The position numbers and the translations under genes were made by a program. The notes beneath the pieces are model-generated. The model had not been told where the DNA came from. It made no database searches and was given only the letters and a program-made list of their open reading frames with translations. A DNA stretch of 43,002 nt from positions 1-43,002 of the IMG/VR virus record IMGVR_UViG_3300005095_000169; one strand, written 5' to 3'. Source of the stretch: a virus. Position 1 is the first letter of the stretch, and every line of letters begins with the position of its first letter. Positions 1-43,002 of the stretch are shown here, piece after piece.

Positions 1-1261
1 GTACTTGAATTCTCGAACAAGTCTTTTTTATAATATAGAAGATGAGAACTATATCACCTTTAATAGGTTAACGGGAGAGCTAAAGAAGTATAATAATAAA
101 ACAAGTTTGATGAGCTTATTAAATGCGAACTACAAGAATATAACCTCCTATAAGAAGATAATATCAAACATTCAAAGCGTGTGTGTAACTTTCAATCCTC
201 ATCAAAAAAATGTCTTTGTGAATGATGAGAATATCAAATACCTAAACACCTACATTCCCCCTCATTTCTTATCTACATGCAAAAAAGAGAAGCAAATAGA
301 AAGTATTGATTACAATAAATATAAAAACATAAACACAATCTTAATGAATCTATTTGTAAAAGAAGAATATAGAGATTATTTTGTTAATTGGTTGGGGTAT
401 GGATTGCAATATAGAGACAAATCTGGAGTAGCGATAATTAGTAAAGGGGTCGAAGGTGCTGGGAAAGGACTATTCTATGAGACAATTATAGAGAAAGCTT
501 ACGGCTCGGAGTATTGTACTATCCTTGATAATGAATCCATGAAGTCCAATTTCAACAACATTTTAGTTAAAAAACTATTCGTGTTGATGAACGAAGTTAA
601 GCCCGATTTTAGAGATTTCAGCACCATTCACGAACGCTTAAAGATGTATGTTACAGATAAGTATATACCGATAGAGGGAAAACACAAAGATACAAGGTTA
701 GAAAGAACTTATTTTAACGCTTGGTTACATACTAATCATGCTATCCCCCTGCAAATAACCCCAACCGATAGACGATACACTGTATTCAACACGGCAAAAA
801 CTCCCCTAAAAAAAGTGATTGATACTGATATATTCTCCTTTATAGGCTCTCTTAAAGAAGAATCCGAAGAGTTTATTAGAGACTTGTATCGCTTAAAAGT
901 TGATAAAGTAAGTGCTACAAATCCTTTAATGACCGAAGCTAAACAACATATAATATCCTCAACTCAAAACAGACTCCAGCACTTAGCCAACACGATAAAA
1001 GCTAAAGAACACAATACTCTATGTAACTTTATCAGCGAATATATAGATAGTAGTGAGAGTGCATATAGAGAGATATGTAGTGAATTACATGAGCAACTAA
1101 AAGAAGACTTTATATCTAATAAAATATTGAGGATATTATATAAAGCATACATTGATACAATGGAGAAGAATAACGCTAAGATAAGTAAGTATTTTTCTTA
1201 TTACTTGCCAAGAAATATGAATAGTGGGAGACGGTGGGGGAGAGGGAGAAGTATCTTATAG
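1..1261 (+). CDS. SF3-type helicase (DUF5906/primase-helicase style), 3' part of gene split by window edge
   Basis: This is the C-terminal 418-419 residues of a 455-residue protein whose start is at 42805; the two pieces join in frame across the circular junction. Visible in full-length numbering: a Walker A motif GVEGAGKG near residues 185-192, a Walker B-like LFVLMNEV near 228-235, and TPTDRRY downstream, a typical SF3 arrangement. Proteins of this style (NrS-1 polymerase-like helicase domain, P4-type primase C-terminus) unwind phage or plasmid origins. No primase-polymerase active site is evident in the N-terminal part, so priming is probably left to the TOPRIM protein next door. Its last codons are G-rich (SGRRWGRGR). 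It ends 6 nt inside the convergent primase gene. The domain call is strong; the role as origin helicase is inferred from the iterons upstream of its start. Confidence 0.82.
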   Translation, partial: YLNSRTSLFYNIEDENYITFNRLTGELKKYNNKTSLMSLLNANYKNITSYKKIISNIQSVCVTFNPHQKNVFVNDENIKYLNTYIPPHFLSTCKKEKQIESIDYNKYKNINTILMNLFVKEEYRDYFVNWLGYGLQYRDKSGVAIISKGVEGAGKGLFYETIIEKAYGSEYCTILDNESMKSNFNNILVKKLFVLMNEVKPDFRDFSTIHERLKMYVTDKYIPIEGKHKDTRLERTYFNAWLHTNHAIPLQITPTDRRYTVFNTAKTPLKKVIDTDIFSFIGSLKEESEEFIRDLYRLKVDKVSATNPLMTEAKQHIISSTQNRLQHLANTIKAKEHNTLCNFISEYIDSSESAYREICSELHEQLKEDFISNKILRILYKAYIDTMEKNNAKISKYFSYYLPRNMNSGRRWGRGRSIL

Positions 1262-6317: not shown

Positions 6318-6346
6318 TTGTATCCTTTTTCATATTTTACAACCTT

Positions 6347-8612: not shown

Positions 8613-9071
8613 TTATACAGAAATGTATCTTAGTTGTTTCTGTATATACATAGCAATCAAGATAGCATCTGCTATTCCATCTTCTTTTTTAGTAAGGTTT
8701 AATCCCCAGTAATCATTAACATAGTCTATGTGGTGCTTTTTGGTTCTTCTTTGCCCTACTGGAACTAATGGAAAAGCGTTCATCCACTTTTGAGGAAGTA
8801 TCTCTTTAAAATTACTATTTCTACATGCCCATAAAAGCATATAATAATTCCCACCAATAGCCATAGCACCACCTTGATTACCCCTTATGTGTTGCTTTTC
8901 TATACCGACTATATCACAATCCCTTATTGCATATTCCAGACTGCTACTATCTACTACATTATACTTTCCTATCTTTTGAATAGGCATCTTATAATATTCG
9001 ATACTATTTGTAACAGTATCGATAATAGCTATCCCACCTTTTAATCCAGCATCTATGCCAACTATTTTCAT
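8613..9071 (-). CDS. RuvC-type Holliday junction resolvase
   Basis: 152 residues with an RNase H-fold nuclease pattern. First acidic residue D7 in KIVGIDAG, second E58 in IVGIEKQ, and the C-terminal pair D131 and D135 in KKEDGIADAILIA, the four metal-binding positions of RuvC. A lysine-rich stretch, QRRTKKHH, precedes the last motif as in RuvC proteins that dimerise on four-way junctions. It probably cuts branched replication or recombination intermediates before packaging. It faces the neighbouring ATPase gene and diverges from the Csx20-like gene. Leader AAAGGATAATAA precedes the ATG. Confidence 0.87.
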   Translation of the reverse strand: MKIVGIDAGLKGGIAIIDTVTNSIEYYKMPIQKIGKYNVVDSSSLEYAIRDCDIVGIEKQHIRGNQGGAMAIGGNYYMLLWACRNSNFKEILPQKWMNAFPLVPVGQRRTKKHHIDYVNDYWGLNLTKKEDGIADAILIAMYIQKQLRYISV

Positions 9072-9131: not shown

Positions 9132-9143
9132 TTACTGTATAAT
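9132..9143 (+). promoter_or_regulatory. Promoter of the Csx20-like / 2H-phosphoesterase pair
   Basis: TTACTGTATAAT (-10 TATAAT at 9138-9143), then AAAC, TTACAAAA and a leader AAAAGGATACAACA before the ATG at 9174. The TTACTGTAT word recurs at the promoters at 9959 and 16931. The gene pair therefore has its own promoter and is divergent from the resolvase gene. Confidence 0.65.
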
Positions 9144-9173
9144 AAACTTACAAAACTATAAAAGGATACAACA

Positions 9174-9578
9174 ATGAAAAGAAGAATGTTTTTAGTGTTT
9201 TCACATACGCTTACAAAAGCCCAAGAGAGAGATGCAAAAGAGAGATTTGGTATTGAAGATTTTATAAATATGCCAGATAAGTTAAAGTATCTTTGGAGTA
9301 ATGTGAATCCAAACAGTCAGTTAGCACCACTTAGACTTGCGAATGAGGTGTCAAACTGGCTAATTAGTCAACAATTAGACAAAAATGATGTTTGTCTAGT
9401 TCAGGGAGACTTTGTTGCGACTTATATTCTGGTTGATTGGCTAAAAAGAAGCGGCGTAAAAGCCGTTTATGCCACAACAAAAAGAAATGTAGTAGAAAAG
9501 AAAGTTCACGGCAAAATAGTTAAAACTTCAGTTTTTGAACATATAATGTTTAGAGAATATAGAGGTGCTAATGAGTAA
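9174..9578 (+). CDS. Csx20-like protein, candidate cyclic-oligoadenylate ring nuclease (anti-type III CRISPR)
   Basis: 134 residues. Patterns I associate with the type III CRISPR ancillary family Csx20 are present in order: FSHTLT (9-14), Q17-x-x-DA (to 21), LKYLWSNVNP (37-46), VQGDF-x-ATYILVDW (76-89), YATTKR (99-104), E108, then FEHIMFREY (121-129). The Csx15/Csx16/Csx20 group has been reported to bind or cleave cyclic tetra-adenylate. In a host CRISPR locus it would tune the response; on a phage with no cas genes it would be expected to erase the alarm signal, like the viral ring nuclease AcrIII-1. The family call rests on remembered motifs, not a search. It overlaps the next gene by 8 bases (ATGAGTAA). 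Confidence 0.72.
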   Translation: MKRRMFLVFSHTLTKAQERDAKERFGIEDFINMPDKLKYLWSNVNPNSQLAPLRLANEVSNWLISQQLDKNDVCLVQGDFVATYILVDWLKRSGVKAVYATTKRNVVEKKVHGKIVKTSVFEHIMFREYRGANE

Positions 9579-9942
9579 CTTCACACCTATTTATACAGGG
9601 GTATTTTTACCCCAAGCTAACTATCATATAACTTACCACTTCAACCCAACAAGTCCAACCTTTCCAAACAATTCAATCATAGAGGCAACTAAGGCTAAAA
9701 TAGCCATCGTAGGTGAATACGAAGATTCACAGGTGAGGTGCTACATATGCGAAATTCACCTTAAATCTGGAATAGTGTTGAAGACTCAAAAGGATAGTGA
9801 TAGGTTGCTGCATATCACTGTATGGACTGCTAAAGGAGTCAAGCCAGTCCAATCAGGAATAAATGCCACTAATCATCAAGATAAAATAAAAAAAATACCA
9901 ACTATCTACTTAATTGGATATTGGAGAACTTTCTACAACTAG
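9571..9942 (+). CDS. 2H-phosphoesterase-like protein, candidate cyclic-nucleotide or RNA-end phosphodiesterase
   Basis: 123 residues from the ATG at 9571, which has AGAGG upstream; a GTG at 9565 is less likely. Two copies of the 2H signature (hydrophobic-H-hydrophobic-T-hydrophobic) are visible: YHITY (H19, T21) and LHITV (H81, T83), 62 residues apart, a spacing usual for this fold. WTAKGVKPVQSG follows the second. 2H enzymes include RNA-end cyclic phosphodiesterases and the phage anti-CBASS enzyme Acb1. The tight coupling to a Csx20-like gene favours a role against signalling nucleotides, but tRNA or RNA repair is a real alternative. No search was possible. Confidence 0.62.
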   Translation: MSNFTPIYTGVFLPQANYHITYHFNPTSPTFPNNSIIEATKAKIAIVGEYEDSQVRCYICEIHLKSGIVLKTQKDSDRLLHITVWTAKGVKPVQSGINATNHQDKIKKIPTIYLIGYWRTFYN

Positions 9943-9955
9943 CTAATCTTACATT

Positions 9956-10001
9956 AAGTTACTGTATGCTAATGTTATAAAAACATAAAAGGATACAGTA
10001 A
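9956..10001 (+). promoter_or_regulatory. Promoter with inverted repeat over the FtsK-like gene start
   Basis: TTACTGTATGCT with -10 TATGCT at 9965-9970, then AATG, TTATAAAA and the AAAAGGATACAGTA leader. TTACTGTAT (9959-9967) is the exact complement of ATACAGTAA (9993-10001), which overlaps the start codon. AAGTTACTGT (9956-9965) recurs in complement at 15351 and 34432. Confidence 0.62.
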
Positions 10002-10882
10002 TGAGTTTCACAGAAAAAATAATCAATTCAATCCACAATATACTATTTGAGACAAAACATGAGCAAATAGAAAAGCCACAGTTACCACAGTTAAGTTTAG
10101 AAGAACCAAAAGAGGGAGAAACAGTTTTAAAGATTCCTCTAAATGATGAATTAACATTAGATATGTTTTCGTTCTACCATGCTCTAATTTCTGGTAGAAC
10201 TGGGAGTGGTAAAGGTGTATTTATTCAATACTGTTTAGCTAAAGCAGTAGCAAATAAGGAGAATAGTCCATTCGACATTATCATAATTGATAAAAAAGGA
10301 GTTGATTTTAAATTTCTAAAGACGGCAGGTAAGGCTGAAATTATCCCAAACATAAAAGTTAAAGATATAAGCAAGAAAGACCAAGTTCTCATTAAATTGA
10401 GGGAACTATGGGAAGAAAAAGAGCGTAGAGCTGAAATAATATGGGATGAAGATTGTCTTAATATTCAGCATTATAATAGCGAAAATAAAGATAAATACAT
10501 GAAACCTATATGGGTTATTATAGATGAATATGCAGGTTTTAAAAGCGAATATGGAGATGAAGCAGATGATATAGTATCAAGACTTCTTGCTGAAGCTAGA
10601 AGTTATGGTATCTTTGTGTGGATAGCTACACAGTACGCATTAGCTAGTATAGTTTCATCAGACAAAAGAATAAATTGTGGAATGTTTGCATCTGGCAAGT
10701 TGGAGACAGAGCAAGAATCAAGTGTTGTTCGTATTCCAACAGCACATACGATAGATGTTGATGGAATGCTACATATAAAACTACCAAAGACAGATAGAAA
10801 GAAGCCTATAAAATTTGTGACTCCATATATGGGAAGCAATACAGGACAAATTGAATTTTTAAAAAAAATAATAGGCTTATGA
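10001..10882 (+). CDS. FtsK/SpoIIIE-like DNA-translocase ATPase
   Basis: 293 residues. Walker A GRTGSGKG (65-72), a strand IIIIDKKG (94-100), Walker B WVIIDEY (171-177), then the FtsK hallmark EARSYGIFVWIATQ (198-211). The length equals a bare FtsK motor domain with no membrane segments and no gamma DNA-reading domain. Such motors pump double-stranded DNA in division, conjugation or, in some membrane-containing viruses, packaging. This phage also has a T7-type terminase, so packaging is probably not its job; DNA entry, segregation or transfer are possible. It has its own promoter and precedes the virion genes. Confidence 0.83.
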   Translation: MSFTEKIINSIHNILFETKHEQIEKPQLPQLSLEEPKEGETVLKIPLNDELTLDMFSFYHALISGRTGSGKGVFIQYCLAKAVANKENSPFDIIIIDKKGVDFKFLKTAGKAEIIPNIKVKDISKKDQVLIKLRELWEEKERRAEIIWDEDCLNIQHYNSENKDKYMKPIWVIIDEYAGFKSEYGDEADDIVSRLLAEARSYGIFVWIATQYALASIVSSDKRINCGMFASGKLETEQESSVVRIPTAHTIDVDGMLHIKLPKTDRKKPIKFVTPYMGSNTGQIEFLKKIIGL

Positions 10883-11117: not shown

Positions 11118-11273
11118 ATGGGTGGATTATTCTCAACTCCAAAGATGAACACAGGGCAGGTAGTAGATACAGATAAGAAGCTTAAAAATATCTCTCTATA
11201 TGCCCCAAAAAACAAGAAGAAGCCGACATATTCGGATAAAATTTTTACGATAGATTTAAGTAGTATGAAATGA
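11118..11273 (+). CDS. Small basic protein before the portal gene
   Basis: 51 residues, starting MGGLFSTPKM and rich in lysine. AAGGAG lies 7 nt before the ATG, and the stop overlaps the portal start (ATGA), so the frame is almost certainly translated. Many podophages carry a short protein with a similar MGxLF-xxPK start beside the portal gene; its role is unknown. Confidence 0.78.
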   Translation: MGGLFSTPKMNTGQVVDTDKKLKNISLYAPKNKKKPTYSDKIFTIDLSSMK

Positions 11274-12706
11274 TTTATTCAAACTATACACAGCTTGTGT
11301 CAGATAGGGATGTATATGAGAATATAGCAGAGGAACTAGAACATTACATATTTCCTACTTTAAAGGAGTCCTTATCTAGTGATGAAACGATAGTTAGAAA
11401 TCAGTCCTTAGGTGCAGACCTAATAAGCTCACTCTCATCAAAGTTAATAAAATCTATCTTTCCATTTGGTCAAAAGTTTTTTAGGTTATATATGGATGAA
11501 AGCAATGAAAAAATTGAAAACATGCTGATAATCCTTGAAGATACACTTCTTAAGCAGTCAAACGCCTTAAATATAAGGGGAGTAGTTACGCAAGTAATAG
11601 AGCATCTCCTTATTACTGGGAATGTTCTATTAGACTTAACATCTGATTTTGTTAATTTTTATCGCTTAGATGAGTATGTAGTGGCAAGAAGAGAAGATGG
11701 AGAGTGGTATCAAATCATAATAAATAAAAAAATGGTAATTCTACCAGATGATGATTCAATTTATAGTAAGTATGCATCTAGTCAGGGCGACACGGACTAC
11801 TATTCTACTAATCCATTTGAGTATGACTTCTATATAGATATAAGAAAGCCTCTAAAAGGTAATATAGTCATAAGGGAGTTTATAAATGATATAGAAGTTG
11901 TTGAAAAGAAAAGAGAGGTATCGCGAGACTATCCTATTTATCCTATACGCTTATATGAAGAGGCTGGGGATAATTATTCTCACTCTTACGCATTTAGGCA
12001 CATTGGAGACTTAAGGTTTTATGATGACTTATCAAAAGTTGTTAGGCAGTCGGCACTGATAGACTCAAAAGTTATACATCTTGTAAATCCTGCTTCAGTT
12101 CTTGCTGATAATTTAAAAGAGTTAGCAAGTGCAAGGAATGGGGATTTTGTTGTAGGTAATGATGGTGATGTAGTACCATATTCTCCGAACCATAAGTATT
12201 CTATTCAGTTTCTTATAGGGGTTATGGAGCAAGTAGAAAGAAGGCTATCAATCGCTTATCTTAGAGGCTTAGGCGTAATTAGGGAACGCCAAACCACAGC
12301 ATATGAAGTCCAAACTCTTATAAATGAGATGAGTGAGAAATTTGGTGGGTTCTATATTACTATCTCTCACTCACTCCAGCAACCAATATTTGATTTTATG
12401 CTAAAGACATTAAAACTTGATAAGAAGCTAAAAGATGTAAAAGTGGAATTTCTAAATGGTATAGACACCCTAAGAGATGCTGATAAGTTCCAAAAGCTCA
12501 CTCAACTTGTTCCTTTAGAGGCTATTTACTCATCTGGGCAAGTAGGATACATATCTTTTGAAAAAGTATTCAAATTATATGCACAAGCTTTAGGATTAAA
12601 TACAGAGGAGCTTATAAAAGATGAGCAAGAAATTCAAGCAGAAGAGCAATATCAAGCTACACAAGCAGTATTTGCACAAAAATTACAACAAGGACAGCAA
12701 CAATGA
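11270..12706 (+). CDS. Portal protein (T7-type head-tail connector)
   Basis: 478 residues, close to T7 connector size. Family landmarks: an N-terminal helical region with FPFGQKFFRLYMD, YPIYPIRLYEEAGDNYSHSYA, HIGDLRFYDDLSKVVRQ, HLVNPAS, GDFVVGNDGDVVPY, and RERQTTAYEVQTLINEMSEKFGGFY near the C-terminus, matching the E-R-x-TA-x-E helix of T7-type portals. It forms the dodecameric ring at the packaging vertex and binds the tail tube and terminase. It is coupled to the genes on both sides by 4-base overlaps. Confidence 0.92.
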   Translation: MIYSNYTQLVSDRDVYENIAEELEHYIFPTLKESLSSDETIVRNQSLGADLISSLSSKLIKSIFPFGQKFFRLYMDESNEKIENMLIILEDTLLKQSNALNIRGVVTQVIEHLLITGNVLLDLTSDFVNFYRLDEYVVARREDGEWYQIIINKKMVILPDDDSIYSKYASSQGDTDYYSTNPFEYDFYIDIRKPLKGNIVIREFINDIEVVEKKREVSRDYPIYPIRLYEEAGDNYSHSYAFRHIGDLRFYDDLSKVVRQSALIDSKVIHLVNPASVLADNLKELASARNGDFVVGNDGDVVPYSPNHKYSIQFLIGVMEQVERRLSIAYLRGLGVIRERQTTAYEVQTLINEMSEKFGGFYITISHSLQQPIFDFMLKTLKLDKKLKDVKVEFLNGIDTLRDADKFQKLTQLVPLEAIYSSGQVGYISFEKVFKLYAQALGLNTEELIKDEQEIQAEEQYQATQAVFAQKLQQGQQQ

Positions 12707-16930: not shown

Positions 16931-16947
16931 TACTGTATCATACAGTT
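16931..16947 (+). promoter_or_regulatory. Promoter with 15-bp operator-like palindrome
   Basis: ACTGTATCATACAGT (16933-16947) is a perfect palindrome around one central base and contains the -10 TATCAT (16937-16942). Then come TTATAAAA and the AAAAGGAATACA leader before the ATG at 16972. A repressor bound here would block the promoter. Confidence 0.62.
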
Positions 16948-16971
16948 ATAAAATAATATAAAAGGAATACA

Positions 16972-17199
16972 ATGGACACAAGCAAAGAAAAAATATCTTT
17001 TAAAGATATTATGGAAGTTGAGCAAGTAAAGAGAGTTGCAAGTGAAACGAAAAGCAGTACAATTAGTACTACAATTGGACTTGGAGTTGGGATTGCTATG
17101 GCAATGTCAGGGTATAGTATGTTGGCAATTCCAACATTTGGCATCATAGGATGGTCAATTGATACAGCCGTGAATGCAAAACTTAGAGGGGAGGCTTAA
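16972..17199 (+). CDS. Small membrane protein
   Basis: 75 residues: a charged N-terminal 30, then a glycine-rich hydrophobic hairpin (TIGLGVGIAMAMSGYSMLAIPTFGIIGWSI condensed over about 37-66) that could span the membrane once or twice. No family recognised. It has its own promoter with a palindromic operator and heads a three-gene group. Confidence 0.75.
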   Translation: MDTSKEKISFKDIMEVEQVKRVASETKSSTISTTIGLGVGIAMAMSGYSMLAIPTFGIIGWSIDTAVNAKLRGEA

Positions 17200-38703: not shown

Positions 38704-40392
38704 ATGATTAATGAGAAAGATTTTGTTAGATACTTAACAGACTTTGAGAGTTGTGTTGAGTATGTCTTTAGAGAGATAGGGCTTGGAGCTATTACAACAG
38801 TTCAGCGATTTATATGTAGAGATTTGCAAAGAGCATATAAGAATGAGGAAAACTTAATAATTGAACAATTTAGAGGTATAGGAAAGTCTCTAATCACTTC
38901 TATTTTTGCAATGTGGATACTTGCTAAGAATAGGGATTTAAAGATACTTGTAATATCTGGTACTTCATCTAAGGCTAAAAACTTTGTAAGGTTTTGTTAT
39001 CTCTTGATGGCTAAAACTGAATTCTTTTCTATTATCAAAATAAAAGAGAGGAGTGGTAGCAGAACTTCAGTAGAGGCGTTTGATGTTGTTGGTGCATCTC
39101 CAGCACAAGACCCATCACTCAAATCTCTCGGAGTGACTGGAACTGTAACATCAGCTAGAGCTAACATAATAATAGTTGATGATATGGAGACTAAAAAGAA
39201 TGCAAGAAGTCCTACTCAAAGAGAGTTATTATATGAAATTTCAACTGAATTTGAAGCACTACTTACTGCTGGTGCTAAGCAATTCATAGTCTATCTTGGA
39301 ACAAGGCATCACAGAGAGTCTGTTTACCACAGAATAAGAGAAGAGAGAGGATTCACTCATTACATATGTCCAGTTTTCTTTCCAGAATCAAAGGAGAAGT
39401 TAGATGAATATAAAGGTTTACTAGCACCTCATATATATTATAGGCTTTACTTTAACGGGCTTATAGATGATAGTTATTTAAGGGATAAAGATAAACTTGG
39501 AGATACATATATAGAGGCATGTAAAAAGAAAAAGGGAACATGGGGTGAACCTACCGATGAAAGATTTTCAAAAGATGAGATTGAGAAGAAAATAAAAGGT
39601 ATGGGTAGGACTGCTTTTGATATGCAAATGATGCTTAGAATTGAGCAATCAGAAGAGATTTACCCTCTCTCTTTTTCAGACTTACTTATCACAAACTTTC
39701 CTCCGACTAAAGTATTAGAATATATATATCTTGATGAGAACAAAAAATCAGATATACATATAGCAGGTAAGAGAGTAGATGATGAGGTTAATTGCTACTT
39801 TGATATAGGTAAACTCACAAAGCCTAATTATACTATCATGAGCGTTGACCCTAGTGGTAGAGGTGAGGATTTATTTGCTTACTCAATAATTTCTGTTTAT
39901 ATGGGGAAGATGTTTATTCATAAAGTTAACGGGTTGCAAGGTGGATATAAAGATGATAATTTGTTTACTATAATAGATGAGTGTAAGCTTTTTAGGGTTA
40001 ACAAGGTTGTTATAGAAGATAACTTTGGTGACGGGGCAATCACTCAACTTCTTTTAAAGGCTATGGACTCTATTGGTTATAGAGTTAATGTTGAGGAAGT
40101 AAAGAATCTTGCAAGTAAGACTGATAGAATGATTGATACACTAGAGCCACTTTTTAATCAGCATAGAGTTATATTTGATAGGCATGTAATAGAATATAGT
40201 AATAGAATATCTAACTTGTATGGAGTAGAACACTCACTTGCCTACCAACTTTCAAGGCTTGTAAGAGATGAGCCTTTGGCTCATGATGACTGCTTGGATT
40301 CGTTGGAGTTGGGGCTTGGGTGGGTTGTTCGGATTGGGGGGGGTTTGTCGGTCGGTCAAAAATTCGTCTCCATTGATGGGGGGGTGCGTTAA
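38704..40392 (+). CDS. Large terminase subunit (T7 gp19-like)
   Basis: 562 residues. ATPase: Walker A FRGIGKS (56-62), Walker B NIIIVDDME (about 154-162), then FEALLTAGAKQFIVYLGTRHH. Nuclease: SVDPSGRGED (about 380-389), VVIEDNFGDGAI and AHDDCLDSLELGLG near the C-terminus, carrying the acidic metal-binding residues. It packages DNA into the head through the portal and cuts it. The last 25 codons are unusually G-rich and encode a glycine-rich tail (WVVRIGGGLSVG, SIDGGVR). No other motor in the window fits this job better. Confidence 0.92.
   Translation: MINEKDFVRYLTDFESCVEYVFREIGLGAITTVQRFICRDLQRAYKNEENLIIEQFRGIGKSLITSIFAMWILAKNRDLKILVISGTSSKAKNFVRFCYLLMAKTEFFSIIKIKERSGSRTSVEAFDVVGASPAQDPSLKSLGVTGTVTSARANIIIVDDMETKKNARSPTQRELLYEISTEFEALLTAGAKQFIVYLGTRHHRESVYHRIREERGFTHYICPVFFPESKEKLDEYKGLLAPHIYYRLYFNGLIDDSYLRDKDKLGDTYIEACKKKKGTWGEPTDERFSKDEIEKKIKGMGRTAFDMQMMLRIEQSEEIYPLSFSDLLITNFPPTKVLEYIYLDENKKSDIHIAGKRVDDEVNCYFDIGKLTKPNYTIMSVDPSGRGEDLFAYSIISVYMGKMFIHKVNGLQGGYKDDNLFTIIDECKLFRVNKVVIEDNFGDGAITQLLLKAMDSIGYRVNVEEVKNLASKTDRMIDTLEPLFNQHRVIFDRHVIEYSNRISNLYGVEHSLAYQLSRLVRDEPLAHDDCLDSLELGLGWVVRIGGGLSVGQKFVSIDGGVR
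40311..40343 (+). other. G-rich tract with quadruplex potential at the end of the terminase gene
   Basis: GGGG-CTT-GGG-T-GGG-11 nt-GGGGGGGG within a very AT-rich genome; another run of G lies at 40378-40384. The runs could form a G-quadruplex on the plus strand. Position at the terminase 3' end invites comparison with packaging sites, without proof. Confidence 0.5.
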
Positions 40393-42804: not shown

Positions 42805-43002
42805 ATGATAGAAAAGATAAAGAAAGAATTAAAGAATCTAAGTGATTCAAAATTCATAGATGCAAATAGAGAGAAGATTGAGAATCTGTATATAGAGTTA
42901 ATAAAGCAAGGGTACTTGAATTCTCGAACAAGTCTTTTTTATAATATAGAAGATGAGAACTATATCACCTTTAATAGGTTAACGGGAGAGCTAAAGAAGT
43001 AT
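42805..43002 (+). CDS. 5' part of the SF3-type helicase gene (continues at 1-1261)
   Basis: ATG at 42805 begins a frame that runs off the window and continues in frame at base 1, since 42912 equals 1. The 37 residues before the join (starting MIEKIKKELKNLSD) complete a 455-residue protein. TATAAT at 42772-42777 lies upstream, and the iterons end about 190 nt before the start. The ribosome binding site is weak (AGAGAGAAAATAAAAG). Confidence 0.82.
   Translation, partial: MIEKIKKELKNLSDSKFIDANREKIENLYIELIKQGYLNSRTSLFYNIEDENYITFNRLTGELKKY
42912..43002 (+). repeat. Terminal duplicate of bases 1-91
   Basis: Bases 42912-43002 equal 1-91 without a mismatch, as when a circular or terminally redundant genome is opened by an assembler. 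The length of 91 would suit a k-mer overlap. The unique length is 42,911 bp. Confidence 0.92.

Follow-up and report, generated by a model that had tools for sequence, protein, structure and literature searches.

A stand-alone Csx20-family gene on a complete T7-like phage genome, a probable captured off-switch of type III CRISPR signalling

Introduction

Why would a phage carry a csx20 gene, which in cells usually belongs to a type III CRISPR locus? The question arises from the IMG/VR virus record IMGVR_UViG_3300005095_000169, taken here over the whole stretch of 43,002 nucleotides (the window), in which a first-pass annotation of the bare sequence had pointed out an open reading frame (ORF) as a candidate viral ring nuclease. 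The Csx20 tested in the literature cleaves cyclic tetra-adenylate (cA4), degrades cA3 fully at a ten-fold higher enzyme concentration and leaves cA6 uncleaved (PMC12409355). The annotation had listed cA6 next to cA4 as a substrate to assay, and this choice is contradicted by the same data, in which cA3 was cut at high enzyme concentration and cA6 was spared (PMC12409355). It had also presented the gene as a new carrier of anti-type III activity, which goes too far, as Csx20 has been counted in 4 of 28,114 phage genomes (Hoikkala et al. 2025, PMC12409355). Phage-borne Csx20 as a counter-defence had been described before, in a small number of phages (PMC12409355). The present analysis adds a T7-like carrier with a complete genome, a further circular phage, unrelated to the first, that has csx20, and the putative phage promoter module in front of the gene.

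Results

Family membership of the csx20 product

The ORF extends from an ATG start to a TAA stop and encodes 134 amino acids (Table 1). The product matches the curated equivalog NF040559 (NCBIfam CAS_Csx20, cut-off 70 bits) with 135.2 bits and an E-value of 1.5e-39 along the entire profile (1-124 of 124), which is far beyond chance. The PADLOC Csx20 models agree, with an E-value of about 1e-40 (1.9e-40), and the product is also matched by the Csx20 domain of the PADLOC CARF-HEPN-Csx20 fusion model and by the joint Csx15/20 model. Judged by these profiles, the phage ORF is a full-length Csx20, and the identity first proposed from the letters alone is upheld. Two other identities were rejected on family scores: Csx15/Csx16, because the highest scores come from the models specific to Csx20 and the equivalog matched in NCBIfam is also that of Csx20, and AcrIII-1, whose DUF1874 domain is absent from the product. 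Searches of Pfam up to E 1, DUF1874 included, and of the PHROGs returned no match, in agreement with the earlier statement that the protein is unrelated to AcrIII-1.

Table 1. Positions of the features discussed, in window coordinates.
Feature	Position	Strand	Evidence
Terminal repeat, left copy, 91 bp, exact	1..91		sequence repeat
RuvC-like Holliday junction resolvase, divergent from csx20	8613..9071	-	phrog_1770, E 1e-19
Leader before csx20, repeated putative promoter/ribosome-site module TTACTGTAT-NNTA-...-AAAAGGATAC	9132..9169	+	38-bp composite pattern
csx20, Csx20-family ring nuclease, stand-alone	9174..9578	+	NF040559, PADLOC, conserved residues, AF2 model
ORF of no known family, downstream of csx20	9571..9942	+	sequence; profile searches negative
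Leader module, second copy, before FtsK-like gene	9959..9996	+	38-bp composite pattern
FtsK/SpoIIIE-like ATPase	10001..10882	+	PF01580, E 6.5e-13; phrog_1358, E 3e-26
Head-tail connector (T7-like portal)	11270..12706	+	phrog_449, E 1.2e-75; PF12236, E 7.7e-27
Leader module, further copy, before ORF 16972-17199	16934..16966	+	looser pattern
T7-like terminase large subunit	38704..40392	+	PF22530, E 2.3e-28
Terminal repeat, right copy, 91 bp, exact	42912..43002		sequence repeat

Conserved residues and predicted structure of the phage Csx20

The motifs quoted in the first-pass annotation are present in the product, namely FSHTLT (with H11), QGDFVATY (D79), YATTKR (T101, T102 and R104) and FEHIMFREY (H123 and R127), and the alignment of Csx20 proteins shows conservation of H11, D79 and the YATTKR region, which had been named beforehand as the signs to look for. 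The residues invariant across 42 Csx20 proteins (H11, L13, Q17, D72, G78, F121 and R127) are all kept in the phage copy, together with Q77, D79, F80, Y99, T101, T102, R104, E108, H123 and F126. The set retained in this way includes a putative cA4-site/core consisting of H11, Q17, D72, QGDF, YATT, R104, FxH and R127. The sole change among the columns conserved at 90% or more is Gly81 to Val in the QGDFG loop, where the glycine is 93% conserved among Csx20 proteins; this replacement adjoins, but falls outside, the putative cA4-site/core set. The phage protein is about 50% identical to cellular copies at best, and its branch in the tree of 42 proteins is long (2.01). Because of the Gly81Val replacement and the long branch, the activity or specificity of the phage Csx20 may have shifted.

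The AlphaFold2 model, which was built with 11 homologues, has a pLDDT of 93.5 and predicts a Rossmann/CARF-like fold for the monomer, with a weak likeness to CARF and ring-nuclease folds. The best PDB matches include Cam1 (its cA4-bound CARF domain), SAVED domains, Crn1 (Sso2081 and Sis0455), Can2 and Csm6; every one is weak by itself (E > 0.001; TM of about 0.5 at most), and CARF, SAVED and ring-nuclease chains are over-represented among the matches. The prediction, weak as all its matches are, thus accords with the Rossmann-like ring-nuclease fold expected earlier. No solved Csx20 was found by PDB sequence searches. Among the viral structure models of BFVD, three matches to the Csx20 model pass E 0.001, with a best TM of 0.67-0.70. 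These uncharacterised viral proteins (A0A5Q2WBQ4, A0A6J5NYB9 and A0A1S5Y369) are candidates for further viral ring nucleases on the strength of their modelled structures, so other viruses may hold Csx20 relatives that sequence searches miss.

The carrier phage and the surroundings of csx20

The first 91 bp of the window are repeated exactly at its end. Owing to this terminal repeat the record represents a complete phage genome, of 42,911 bp when closed, and the carrier is a complete T7-like podovirus genome. It encodes a T7-like connector, capsid, tail tube, nozzle, terminase, holin and amidase for structure and lysis, and a primase, helicase, exonuclease, Erf-like annealing protein and RuvC-like resolvase for replication. 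An FtsK/SpoIIIE-like ATPase is present besides the T7-like terminase. No relatives of the terminase were found in the viral contigs, and one viral contig (L002) with a portal 63% identical to that of the phage lacks csx20 in the 4.5 kb that precede this portal.

Searches for Cas10 and Csx1/Csm6 gave no match anywhere in the record, and the repeat scan detected no CRISPR-like array, which bears out the earlier observation that the phage has no cas genes, CRISPR repeats or CARF effectors. The gene therefore lies outside any cas locus, on a mobile element, and the usual association of cellular csx20 with a type III CRISPR locus is absent, as expected of a viral copy. Since no integrase was found among the larger ORFs scanned, a lytic lifestyle is probable. 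Of the first-pass description as a free-standing copy on a lytic-type phage, the free-standing part stands on the complete genome and the lack of Cas10 and Csx1, whereas the lytic part is only probable, given that the scan covered the larger ORFs.

The ORF downstream begins with an ATG at 9571, in an 8-nt overlap with the csx20 stop, and is probably co-translated with csx20, judging from this arrangement. It has nothing above the Pfam cut-off, no NCBIfam, PADLOC or PHROG match and no relatives in the viral contigs.

A 38-bp composite pattern precedes csx20 and occurs twice in the phage against 0.00 expected. A looser form, TGTAT..TA..TTATAAAA..AAAGGA, is present at seven positions (simulated mean 0.47), namely at 9136, 9963, 16934 and 7054 on the plus strand and at 6323, 4229 and 41806 on the minus strand. 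All seven copies directly precede a listed ORF on the same strand, and the module is probably the promoter and ribosome site of the phage itself. With one copy before csx20 and others before further phage ORFs, csx20 appears to be wired into the expression signals of the phage.

Cellular relatives and origin of the gene

The cellular relatives of the phage Csx20 are mostly from Campylobacterota. Among 397 genomes of the class to which the closest of them belong, Cas10 is present in 37 of the 40 genomes with csx20 above the cut-off versus 18 of the 357 without (p about 7e-35); in cells, therefore, csx20 and type III CRISPR go together, a pattern from which the phage departs. In the tree, the phage protein pairs with the copy of genome G151 (support 99/79), where csx20 heads a Cas10/Csm operon and Csx1 adjoins divergently. 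Similarly, csx20 lies directly before a Csx1-type gene in the loci L008 and L012. When the first 20 kb of the phage DNA were searched against the 397 genomes, the two best matches were csx20 (76% over 108 bp, E 6.5e-14), which fits capture from a host of this class. We consider that the gene was probably captured from a Campylobacterota host, out of its type III CRISPR locus. Spacer evidence for a host was dropped: besides csx20, the same search gave only short AT-rich, chance-like matches, and the loci around them contain no CRISPR-like arrays.

Other arrangements were also seen among cellular copies. In three Campylobacterota loci (L062 9120-10456, L064 8225-9554 and L013 9033-10378), csx20 is situated beside a WYL-domain regulator with no visible cas operon, and the genome of L062 (G405) carries Cas10 on a separate contig; from this gene order, a csx20-WYL module acting in trans is possible. 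Outside the Campylobacterota, in a Clostridia MAG (L016 1036-1409), csx20 is split over two reading frames.

Further viral copies of csx20

An identical csx20 is present in the IMG/VR records 3300026382_000071 and 3300026488_000003; in the latter, which has 46,225 bp and a 28-bp terminal repeat, the gene crosses the junction. The second Csx20 phage (46 kb, circular) has a terminase of phrog_38 versus the T7 type in the first phage, and searches of it for Cas10 and Csx1 were negative. Its csx20 groups with the copy of a Nautiliaceae genome that adjoins a Csx1 (support 100/99). That the copies of two unrelated phages group with different cellular relatives suggests a separate capture, and hence two captures or more; a single origin is, however, also compatible with the tree.

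Single-sequence scans found no Csx20 relatives in the viral and genome contigs; they were obtained with alignment queries and with the protein of the second phage. Searching 50,697 phage records by tblastn with three Csx20 queries gave no matches, and the four published phage copies were not recovered. A Csx20-like protein that has diverged strongly (PADLOC Csx20, E 2e-5) is encoded by the viral contig IMGVR_UViG_3300043395_001531 (L070 9698-10099).

Discussion

In the class surveyed, csx20 almost always accompanies Cas10. The solitary phage copy is best read as an off-switch, and we hold it likely that this gene is a captured viral ring nuclease that destroys cA4 and thereby blinds type III CRISPR. 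In such a mechanism, csx20, taken from the type III locus of a Campylobacterota host, would be expressed from the phage promoter module upon infection, while the Cas10 of the host would sense phage RNA and make cA4. The phage Csx20 would form a CARF-like dimer that binds cA4 and cuts it to linear products; with cA4 gone, effectors of the Csx1-type CARF-HEPN kind would stay inactive, and the phage would escape abortive RNA degradation.

The divergence of the phage protein bears on two other readings. Given its long branch and the Gly81Val replacement within the conserved QGDFG loop, the phage Csx20, with catalysis lost or slowed, could serve chiefly to bind and sequester cA4 as a sponge, which is largely how the related Csx15 family behaves (PMC13148439). 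We regard this as unlikely, since the phage protein keeps all invariant residues, the authors of the Csx15 study hold sponging to be poor against the large cA4 amounts of type III systems, and Csx15 was not seen in phages (PMC13148439). The same divergence, together with the full degradation of cA3 by the tested Csx20 at ten-fold higher enzyme (PMC12409355), would allow for another target, such as the cA3 of CBASS or NucC-type CRISPR, with the main use not being against cA4 systems. That is improbable in our judgement, as the enzyme that degraded cA3 prefers cA4 (PMC12409355) and as Csx1, a cA4 effector, is the neighbour of several of the cellular relatives that were inspected.

A role outside the conflict with type III immunity, with csx20 as bystander cargo that aids the host or as a passing acquisition, seems very improbable. 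No close phage relatives carrying csx20 were found by which its persistence could be judged, and some cellular csx20 genes are solitary too. Against these points, the ORF is intact, the phage leader module is present and the conserved core is kept; the same gene occurs in a second, unrelated phage, and a phage without integration genes would profit little from curing host signalling other than during its own infection. The capture of a cA4-destroying off-switch remains the reading that we prefer.

A complete stand-alone viral Csx20 is of a kind for which the literature surveyed gives counts in phages but no characterisation. The Campylobacterota, in which csx20 tracks Cas10, are a place to test repeated phage capture of a host off-switch, and such repetition is directly testable because two unrelated phages carry csx20 copies with different cellular relatives.

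Compared with cellular Csx20 (NF040559; cA4 cleavage in PMC12409355), the phage protein has the same size, full-length profile match, invariant residues and predicted CARF-like fold, but it stands alone rather than beside cas10 or csx1, carries Val in place of Gly81 and reaches about half identity at best. It shares its family, phage location and presumed anti-CRISPR role with the phage Csx20 of four genomes (PMC12409355); its own carrier is a T7-like podovirus with a complete genome, and the gene itself is Campylobacterota-like. AcrIII-1 (Crn2), the DUF1874 viral ring nuclease, has the same presumed job of viral cA4 destruction but belongs to another protein family, the phage Csx20 having no DUF1874. 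Csx15 and Csx16 are neighbouring CARF-like families, and the joint Csx15/20 model of PADLOC is common to Csx15 and Csx20.
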